Position numbers and translations under genes: made by a program | Shown here: positions 24,167 through 54,480 of the stretch, piece after piece | Numbering within the stretch: position 1 is the stretch's first letter | How the letters are laid out: each line of letters opens with the position of its first letter | Virus record (IMG/VR): IMGVR_UViG_3300046170_000411 | Coordinates: 1 to 64,000 of that record | DNA from: a virus | Reading direction: 5' to 3' (one strand) | Length of the DNA stretch: 64,000 bases | Notes under the pieces: generated by a model | Seen by the model: the letters and a program-made list of their open reading frames with translations, nothing else | Told to the model about the DNA's origin: nothing | Databases searched by the model: none

Positions 24167-25630
24167 CTACTTCAATAAGAAGAAGTTGTTGGCTCCTTGA
24201 GTAATCAAACATCTTTCAGATAAGAAGTTAACTCTCATTTCGTCCAAGCTAGAAGTGTATGCACCTCCTACTGATCCAGTAATCCAAGTTTTCATTTTTC
24301 TGTCATCAGTTTCAGAAGAACGATAACGTACGTGTAAAAATGGTCTTTTGATATTTTTGCCTAGATCTTGATCGTATACAGTAGATGTACCTGCAGGAAT
24401 AATAGTTCCTTCAACATCACCGAATCCGCCTCTTGTAGCAAAGTCATTTAGATATTTCCAGTCAGTCTTATAAAAATCATAAGCACCTCTTCTAAATCCA
24501 GAAAATCCTAGGTTTAGGGCCATATCTTCAGAATTATTAAATACTCCGTAAGAAGTACCGCCTGCTCCATAAGAATTTTTAGAAGCCAATACATCATCAA
24601 TAGCTAGAGACAAAGCTCTATTGCTATAAATCATATTTTCTTCAATAGCTCCATTCTTATCTAGTTGCTTAAGGATGTTATCAAAACCAACCATAGTTGG
24701 AGTTCCTCCACCTAATAAATCTGTAGATAGTCCGTCATATACATTACCTCTTGCTTCTAATGCAGCAAAGAAACCTTCAGATCCAGTGTAGCTTGCAGCA
24801 GCAGTACCAGCAGAACCAGTTTTCTTTACTGACTCTACCATAGACATCTCTAGGTAATCTTCAAATCTTAGTCTAGTTTCGTGCTCAGACTTTAGGTACC
24901 ATAGGTAACCAGAAGCACCATTTTCAGAAGTAACTTCGATCCAACCAATCTGAGCAGTGTCAGAACCATTGATAGCGTAGTTATCTTTTAGAATAATAGG
25001 CTTGTTAGTATAAGAGCTGTAGTCAGAATCCAAAGATCCAACCATTCCGTCAGTTCCTTTAGCAAACTCAGAACCGTATACTAATACGTTTGCTTTTGCG
25101 TAAGAAGCAGCACCTGTAACACCTGTCCAGTCAGCAGCTGTATAAGCAACAGCAGTAAAAGTTCCGGTATCACCAGCAGCAGCAGCTCCAGCAACAGTAA
25201 CGACCCCTTTAACTACAGGTCCTGTAGCAGCACCTCCAGAAGTTAGTCCTTGTACCATAATGGTTTGTCCAGCTCTAACAACAGGAGCATCTCCTGCAGC
25301 ATAAGCAGTCCCGTCAGGCTTAGCGGCAAAAGTGACTGTAAATATAGATTCTCCAGTACCGCTAGCAGTGCCAATAGCTACGTTGTCGTAACGCGTGTGT
25401 AGTCTTCCTTGCTCAATCCATCTGATTTCGTCAGAAGTAGATGGCATTTCAGCTGATACCATACGTAGGAAAGAAGAGATAGAACGGTTTCCGTAGATCT
25501 CAGCTTCTTTTTCGTATACATCAGGTAAAAATTGTTTTGTAAAATCGAAATCGGTAATATAATTACCTTGAAATAATGATCCCTTGCTAGATGAAGGGGT
25601 TAAGTTTTCAATGCCAGTTGATATAGCCAT
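24167..25630 (-). CDS. Major capsid protein
   Basis: A 487-residue protein. The N-terminal arm (ENLTPSSSKGSLFQGN) and QFLPDVYEKEAEIYGNRSIS are followed by a domain with an Ala/Gly/Thr-rich beta insertion (about residues 90-190), a helix-rich part with MVESVKK and FFAALEARGNVYDGLS, and a C-terminal beta region ending in DEMRVNFLSERCLITQGANN. Length, composition, location after portal and scaffold-like genes, and the hairpin after the gene fit an HK97-fold capsid protein. The fold is inferred. The insertion near residues 90-190 may be a surface-exposed domain. Confidence 0.8.
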   Translation of the reverse strand: MAISTGIENLTPSSSKGSLFQGNYITDFDFTKQFLPDVYEKEAEIYGNRSISSFLRMVSAEMPSTSDEIRWIEQGRLHTRYDNVAIGTASGTGESIFTVTFAAKPDGTAYAAGDAPVVRAGQTIMVQGLTSGGAATGPVVKGVVTVAGAAAAGDTGTFTAVAYTAADWTGVTGAASYAKANVLVYGSEFAKGTDGMVGSLDSDYSSYTNKPIILKDNYAINGSDTAQIGWIEVTSENGASGYLWYLKSEHETRLRFEDYLEMSMVESVKKTGSAGTAAASYTGSEGFFAALEARGNVYDGLSTDLLGGGTPTMVGFDNILKQLDKNGAIEENMIYSNRALSLAIDDVLASKNSYGAGGTSYGVFNNSEDMALNLGFSGFRRGAYDFYKTDWKYLNDFATRGGFGDVEGTIIPAGTSTVYDQDLGKNIKRPFLHVRYRSSETDDRKMKTWITGSVGGAYTSSLDEMRVNFLSERCLITQGANNFFLLK

Positions 25631-53874: not shown

Positions 53875-54066
53875 ATGAAATATTGTAAATGCGGTAATGA
53901 AGTACATCCTGTTCGAATTGAAATGGGTTATAAAAATTGTGTGCAATGCTCTGATACACAGTTATATAGTTATGTACCAATCATTGCAAACAAACAAGTA
54001 CTAGAAGTACAAATCGTTGATCAAGCTACAAGTGCAAATGTTCACAGAGCTTGGCGACGCAAATAA
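53875..54066 (+). CDS. 63-residue zinc-ribbon protein
   Basis: MKYCKCGNEVHPVRIEMGYK with CxC and NCVQCSDTQLYSYV gives a C-x-C...C-x-x-C zinc ribbon of the DksA/TraR tail style. The second half is beta-rich (NKQVLEVQIVDQATSANVHR). It could bind RNA polymerase or nucleic acid. It is the last gene before the structured RNA region. Confidence 0.6.
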   Translation: MKYCKCGNEVHPVRIEMGYKNCVQCSDTQLYSYVPIIANKQVLEVQIVDQATSANVHRAWRRK

Positions 54067-54079
54067 AATATTAACGACA

Positions 54080-54227
54080 CCGAAGGAATGCTGACGAGCA
54101 ATATATACTAGTTAAAAAGACAGGTAATGAGCTGCGCCTTCGGCCACTGGGCGTGACGGGTAAGTGCTGACAAAGTTCGAAAGTACACTATCAGCAAACG
54201 GAGGTTCGACTCCTCCCACGTCCACTA
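54080..54227 (+). ncRNA. Structured RNA with tRNA-like 3' end
   Basis: No open frame spans this 171-bp gap (54067-54237). The 3' end looks like a tRNA: T-stem GGAGG/CCTCC (54200-54216) around a canonical T-loop TTCGACT, then CACGTCC and discriminator A (54217-54224). A 7-base segment GGGCGTG (54149-54155) pairs with CACGTCC (one G-U), giving the acceptor stem. Between them, only one 6-bp hairpin (TGCTGA 54165-54170 / TCAGCA 54191-54196) with a 20-base loop is visible; no ordinary D or anticodon arm fits. Upstream, CCGAAGG (54080-54086) pairs with CCTTCGG (54137-54143). This could be a degenerate tRNA, a tRNA-like element, or a tmRNA-like RNA without a reading frame. CCA is not encoded. Confidence 0.6.
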
Positions 54228-54237
54228 AATTAAAATT

Positions 54238-54480
54238 ATGACTAAAAAACAAATTGACTTGAGAATTGAATCAAAACTGATTGGCAAAATGGCTAATCAT
54301 AGGTTAATGGCACGTGATCTATTTAGAAAACGGCACAAAGGTGCATTTCCAGAATTAAATGTAAATCAATGTATGTATCATCTAAACGAACTTAGAGTGT
54401 GGAAACGTATTGCTGAACTTGTAGATAACACAAATTCTATACCTTATGAAACTTATTATGCAAACGAATTAACTAAATAA
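54238..54480 (+). CDS. 80-residue early protein
   Basis: A basic helical protein (MTKKQIDLRIESKLIGKMAN, LMARDLFRKRHKGAFPELNV, YHLNELRVWKRIAELVDNTN). First gene after the structured RNA, 10 bases downstream. Unknown; possibly nucleic-acid binding by charge. Confidence 0.65.
   Translation: MTKKQIDLRIESKLIGKMANHRLMARDLFRKRHKGAFPELNVNQCMYHLNELRVWKRIAELVDNTNSIPYETYYANELTK

Follow-up and report, generated by a model that had tools for sequence, protein, structure and literature searches.

An RNA element between two small open reading frames

The window, by which we mean the whole analysed stretch of 64,000 nt, is positions 1 to 64,000 of the IMG/VR virus record IMGVR_UViG_3300046170_000411 (64,988 bp). 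The source is a marine phage. Its virion protein, encoded at 24167-25630, shares 49-51% identity with homologues from an uncultured podovirus and from Maribacter phage Panino; identity to those of the Flavobacterium phages 'elemo' is 43%, so that a flavobacterium is the probable host. A GroEL-type chaperonin (Pfam Cpn60_TCP1) is also encoded by this phage (window 44907-46505, minus strand).

The window sequence and its ORF calls place a gap of 171 bp (54067-54237) between two small ORFs (Table 1), neither of which gave a match in a Pfam search. Within the gap lies a 76-nt tRNA-like RNA (hereafter TLS), which is scored at 108 bits by model R1 and in which an AAC linker joins arm alpha to the T-arm. 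The gap itself, the acceptor, the T-arm and the 6-bp hairpin with its 20-nt loop are all found where the initial annotation had placed them, and the plan that it had likened to the tRNA-like domain (TLD) of tmRNA, namely acceptor, one arm and T-arm, was borne out, with covariation (see below) showing that it is under selection. The annotation had seen no tag frame either; indeed, alignment and inspection gave no tag frame with a resume codon and a stop, as the arm loop contains no stop codon in any frame and no frame is conserved in the relatives. The TLS resembles the front half of an alanine tRNA or of tmRNA, with a hairpin substituting for the anticodon arm. The folding energy is modest (z values of -2.0 for the 171-bp gap and -2.5 for the 76-nt TLS) and is by itself weak evidence for the structure.

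Table 1 Features of the 171-bp gap and its flanking ORFs, in window coordinates
Feature	Position	Strand	Details and basis
Small upstream ORF	53875..54066	+	CxC...CxxC motif, end ..WRRK*; conserved beside the RNA cluster
Element B	54080..54143	+	P1 CCGAAGG/CCTTCGG, hairpin GCTGACGAGC, hairpin CAGGTAATGAGCTG; double changes in 4 pairs
Element B, 7-bp stem	54080-54086 / 54137-54143	+	CCGAAGG / CCTTCGG
TLS, 76 nt	54149..54224	+	Acceptor, D-loop, anticodon-replacing arm, T-arm, A73; sequence, covariation
Acceptor stem, 5' strand	54149..54155	+	GGGCGTG; pairs with 54217-54223; covariation
G3 of the G3:U70 pair	54151	+	In the acceptor 5' strand
Stem-less D-loop	54156..54164	+	ACGGGTAAG; GG for the D-loop/T-loop elbow, kept in relatives
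Arm alpha, replacing the anticodon arm	54165..54196	+	Stem covaries, loop kept
Arm alpha, 6-bp stem	54165-54170 / 54191-54196	+	TGCTGA / TCAGCA
Arm alpha, 20-nt loop	54171-54190	+	CAAAGTTCGAAAGTACACTA
T-arm	54200..54216	+	GGAGG-TTCGACT-CCTCC; covariation
T-arm parts	54200-54204, 54205-54211, 54212-54216	+	GGAGG, TTCGACT, CCTCC
Acceptor 3' strand with discriminator A73	54217..54224	+	CACGTCC + A; covariation
Acceptor 3' strand proper	54217-54223	+	
U70	54221	+	
A73	54224	+	
Encoded trailer after A73	54225..54227	+	CTA; matches the phages' own tRNA-Met genes
Small downstream ORF	54238..54480	+	80 aa, MTKKQIDL..

The 7-bp stem upstream of the TLS, described initially as a separate long-range helix, is present and indeed lies outside the TLS: it is part of a distinct member of the small-RNA cluster, element B. 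Element B occurs in eight sequences, either 5' or 3' of the TLS, and is absent beside the TLS in L003 and L004. Double changes are seen in 4 of its 15 pairs and its covariation score is reached by 8 of 500 shuffles, giving it moderate covariation support.

Further elements were noticed. Element C, GACC-AAAAAACCGNCGTACCT..GGGT(A/G)AA..CGGTGAGGTC, is conserved in the RNA cluster of seven contigs (L005, L006, L008, L011, L012, L014 and L180) and corresponds to no Rfam family. Element D (L002, L005, L107, L136, L147 and L150) is a longer structured stretch of the cluster, ..AAACAGA.AAAAG.GTATAAGTC..CTAACATTCCAGT.., that hosts other modules. Directly upstream of GGGGACG-type TLS in L019 (from ~2574 upwards, minus strand) and L021 (from ~4265 upwards, minus strand), ~200 nt of non-coding sequence, well conserved and apparently structured, gave no Rfam match. 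At L118 10360 and L172 11867 (both plus strand), another TLS-like element combines an acceptor of the TAACTAG type with TACTGACGAGTA or a similar hairpin near the T-arm. A second class in the same phage group, armless TLS of ~42 nt, comprises only an acceptor, a D-loop ATGGTTA and a T-arm; its acceptors vary in complementary fashion and lack G3:U70 (L098 3748, L005 7872, L088 3184, L120 12186, L139 7050, L172 9611, L177 6427, L188 10189, L124 7820 and L133 5413).

Relatives of the TLS and selection on its fold

DNA scans of IMG/VR yielded 11 further distinct sequences as close relatives, and wider scans combined with a covariance model gave 63 distinct TLS. The design is found again in dozens of viral genomes. 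Of 50 TLS-bearing records, 25 encode a homologue of the window virion protein at 52-79% identity, indicating that the TLS design outlasts considerable divergence. The family covers relatives of the flavobacterial podoviruses as well as other viral groups. A scan of genome contigs for host copies returned one chance match and contig L049 (NZHE01000017.1), which is binned as a Rickettsiales MAG, bears flavophage genes together with a TLS and is probably a mis-binned phage contig. Under strict filters, 296 Bacteroidota genomes gave two R2 matches, one lying within a real tmRNA and the other TLS-like. Several candidates were discarded: the pattern matches L009, L010, L013 and L016 (coding), L017, L018 and L020 (tRNA-type sequence) and L048 were judged unrelated, and L096 is by inspection a tRNA with a cloverleaf. 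Members of the L116/L138 group score up to the Rfam tRNA cut-off and may therefore be aberrant tRNAs.

Compensatory changes are evident among the close relatives, where all of the 186 cells in 11 aligned sequences are paired (100%) and double changes affect 6 of the 17 pairs, a result reached by 0 of 500 shuffles. Across the 63 distinct TLS, 99.2% of cells are paired (72% in shuffles), 266 cells carry double changes (75 in shuffles) and the covariation score is 0.603 against 0.109, while slid controls collapse; this alignment was fitted to the covariance model and hence leans towards it, and its acceptor and T-stem counts are independent of gap placement. In a Python listing, 44 of 71 TLS have a P2 stem of 5 bp or more, compared with 16% of shuffled middles. 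The TLS fold is under selection. GG is present in the D-loop of 59 of 63 TLS having a TTC T-loop and absent from 3 of 4 having a TGC T-loop, numbers that are small but hint that the contact between the two loops may change in coordination.

Of the three readings offered in the initial annotation, a tRNA mimic and a new structured RNA both stand, whereas the third, a decayed tRNA, is ruled out by covariation together with the conserved G3:U70 and A73. The broader notion of a decayed tRNA or tmRNA, or of an attP copy of the 3' end of a host tRNA or tmRNA, finds some encouragement in mycobacteriophages, where matches to a TLD query adjoin tyrosine integrases as an attP would. Covariation in the two acceptor strands, in the arm and in the T-arm nevertheless also rejects an attP copy, and an integrase was not recognised around the window element; we consider this origin extremely improbable.

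Alanine identity, 3' trailer and interchangeable arms

G3:U70 is the alanine identity pair, and the window TLS carries the tRNA-Ala identity set of G3:U70 and A73. All 63 of the 63 TLS relatives have G3:U70, a count that rests in part on a search pattern which forced U70, C71, C72 and A73 but left G3 free, so that A3:U70 was equally permitted. Among the tRNAs called by ARAGORN at the same loci, G3:U70 occurs in 37 of 38 Ala and 12 of 703 non-Ala tRNAs, and A3:U70 in 100 of the 703. The listing of 71 TLS comprises 66 with G3:U70 and four with A3:U70; the A3:U70 exceptions in L108 and L120 were mispaired, the true acceptor being GGGAGTG/CACTTCC with an arm insert, and L096, also among the exceptions, is the cloverleaf tRNA noted above. 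A T-arm listing of flavophage-type loci, made without acceptor constraint, contained 45 distinct TLS that combine G3:U70 with A73 and 5 that do not, and G3:U70 is present in all close relatives found by a loop pattern that leaves the acceptor untouched. Among direct relatives, one real exception is left, the armless TLS of 44 nt in L043/L072, which has A3:U70. The conservation of G3:U70 suggests that charging, or at least recognition by AlaRS, matters.

The encoded CTA follows A73 in 37 of 44 flavophage-type TLS, and neighbouring tRNA-Met(CAT) genes in five related contigs (L004 348-421, L005, L006, L012 and L014) likewise end in A-CTA. These genes place A1 opposite A72, a mismatch, and the anticodon stem is GGG/CCC in three of them, so that they read as putative phage-encoded initiator tRNAs. 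From the trailer common to the TLS and the tRNA-Met genes we infer that RNase P and RNase Z process the TLS, that CCA is added and that the host AlaRS alanylates it; the trailer fits RNase Z cleavage and CCA addition as known from established tRNA biology.

Such processing might be all that the TLS is for, a punctuation signal at which RNase P and RNase Z cut a polycistronic mRNA and leave short A/T-rich leaders. This would account for the TLS of several relatives, among them L003, L139 and L161, that abut or overlap the upstream stop by 1 nt and end 14-17 nt before the next start, and the same phages bear armless 42-nt TLS consisting of acceptor, D-loop and T-arm determinants only. A cleavage signal leaves unexplained, however, why G3:U70 and A73 are kept in nearly all armed TLS and why the arm loops are conserved, and in many relatives the next ORF is 100-400 nt away. 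We therefore regard a purely punctuating role as unlikely.

The arm is a swappable module. The 20-nt alpha loop, CAAAGTTC-NNAA-AGTACACTA, is carried by seven different stems in all, at least five of them within TLS (TGCTGA, TGTTGA, TGCAAA, GCGAA and CCGA with their complements) and two others, GTAGTTAA and GTAGCTAG, in a free 8-bp hairpin. In L107, L136, L150 and L311 the free hairpin comes directly after the same upstream ORF and is followed by a differently armed TLS. Contig L150 contains the 'theta' arm both free and in a TLS, with an identical 28-nt loop on different stems; the 'kappa', 'lambda' and 'zeta' arms also occur in both settings, and 'beta', 'gamma' and 'kappa' sit on GGGCGTG and GGGAGTG chassis alike. 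Modules can be nested as well: in L108 the zeta arm has an insert in its apical loop, and in L147 lambda lies inside another hairpin.

The occurrence of arms inside and outside TLS, and on both acceptor chassis, would be expected if the arm loops were the functional parts, acting for example as protein or antitoxin decoys or as antisense loops, and the tRNA-like fold merely stabilised and processed them. Engineered tRNA chassis tagged with aptamers exist (PMC7590224), of which this arrangement would be the natural counterpart. A mere scaffold has no need of alanine identity, however, and the loops are not known to have a target; antisense action of the alpha loop on phage genes is rejected, as the rest of the window offers it no extended complementary stretch. 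That the TLS is only a carrier for its arm is thus, in our judgement, rather unlikely.

Proposed function and comparison with known RNAs

Our preferred, still tentative reading, to which we give somewhat less than even weight, is that the phage encodes at 54149-54224 a mimic of alanine tRNA which lacks an anticodon and would be processed like a tRNA, alanylated and used as a decoy or competitor. The host RNase P and RNase Z would free the TLS from a polycistronic transcript, the CCA enzyme would complete its 3' end and AlaRS would charge it, after which EF-Tu, and perhaps SmpB, could bind it. Because the TLS has no anticodon with which to decode and no tag on which to resume, it might then compete with alanyl-tRNA, or with tmRNA in ribosome rescue, which is our guess as to its role. 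The arm, found outside the chassis too, may be a plug-in hairpin that has its own function and that the chassis would stabilise and carry to the translation machinery. A TLD-only molecule has been reported to inhibit tmRNA strongly whether or not it can be charged, perhaps via SmpB titration (PMC4131195); since such inhibition needs no charging, inhibition alone does not explain why G3:U70 is kept. Counting against an alanyl-tRNA or tmRNA mimic are a D-loop unlike that of tmRNA, a tmRNA-model score equal to that of ordinary tRNA-Ala, and the armless A3:U70 TLS of L043/L072.

The data suggest that phages repeatedly evolve mimics of alanine tRNA or tmRNA, perhaps disturbing ribosome rescue or the use of alanyl-tRNA, and the TLS may let phages meddle with host protein synthesis. 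They also reveal swappable RNA hairpin modules. It is possible, though on balance doubtful, that these form a modular RNA system in which conserved-loop hairpins are moved between, and nested in, several carriers, namely the Ala-identity chassis, free hairpins and other elements; if so, each phage would possess its own plug-in set of RNA decoys on an alanylated chassis that binds EF-Tu or the ribosome.

Tools built for known RNAs pass over the element. ARAGORN called 0 genes for tRNA or tmRNA in the window, and a search of the window against 4227 Rfam families, including group I intron and RNase P, gave nothing at gathering scores; the standard tRNA model neither scores well here nor calls the element. 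The TLS is like tRNA-Ala in G3:U70, A73, the T-arm and the GG of the D-loop, but it lacks a D-stem and an anticodon arm, forming an Ala-type tRNA-like domain rather than the canonical cloverleaf (RF00005), which has a D-stem and an anticodon loop of 7 nt. RNAs of this kind escape tRNA gene finders.

In a permissive Rfam search the best weak match is tmRNA (RF00023), at 31.4 bits (E 5.5e-11) against a cut-off of 47; the alignment skips the mRNA-like part entirely. This score is not specific to tmRNA, since the same model gives an ordinary tRNA-Ala 30.9 bits; flavophage relatives score 24-38 bits. Like the TLD of tmRNA, the TLS combines a 7-bp acceptor bearing G3:U70 (compare GGGGGTG/CACCTCC in Flavisolibacter tmRNA) with A73, a stem-less D-loop, a T-arm and one arm. 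Unlike tmRNA, it has no mRNA-like part, pseudoknots or tag, and its D-loop is ACGGGTAAG instead of the tmRNA-like TTTGGTTTTGACAG. A tmRNA proper is ruled out by the score, equal to that of tRNA-Ala, and by the lack of a tag.

Certain TLS in isolate (pro)phages, associated with GOLLD RNA, also share a stem-less D-loop (ACGGGTAAGTGG or ACAGGTAAGTGG), a T-arm and the lack of an anticodon arm, but have C3:G70 and G73 and hence are not of Ala type (L031 2136-2210, L234 5413-5473, L223, L224, L239, L252 and L261). GOLLD RNA lies ~400-560 nt downstream of such TLS (GGCGGTG..CACCGCC) in L073, the same contig as L031, and in L234, and GOLLD and ROOL have been described near tRNA islands, with tRNAs occurring in the GOLLD linker (PMC12286853). 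Both observations would be compatible with a larger, ornate GOLLD/ROOL-type RNA of which the window TLS is one domain. The window nevertheless contains no Rfam match to GOLLD (RF02032) or to ROOL, the gap measures just 171 bp, and the TLS and its neighbouring elements vary in order and combination, making membership of such an RNA very improbable.

Mimicry of tRNA is already known, as is TLD-only RNA in phages. The open-access papers searched, however, gave no description of a covarying family in which an Ala-identity chassis without anticodon carries interchangeable hairpin modules that also occur independently. A tmRNA that is little more than a TLD has been reported in a single phage, mycobacteriophage DS6A (PMC4131195); compared with that RNA, as described, the window RNA shows no recognisable derivation from tmRNA and has a swappable arm. 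RNAs without an mRNA part that score above the Rfam tmRNA cut-off were found in seven other phage sequences (L243, L220, L127, L158, L106, LuckySocke and Shaeky), at 50.5-59.3 bits and in several cases with a clear tmRNA D-loop GGTTTCGAC; judged by score, the window RNA falls outside this tmRNA-derived set. The Streptomyces phages LuckySocke (57.1 bits) and Shaeky (59.3 bits) carry theirs unannotated within tRNA clusters (L316 1501-1577 and L317 1501-1578), and GiJojo, Alone3, pSt2308 and BRock have similar sequences. Like the window TLS, the RNAs of these six phages are anticodon-less and Ala-type, with a length of ~80 nt, but they differ in their clear tmRNA D-loop, and as RNAs of cultured phages they are directly testable.
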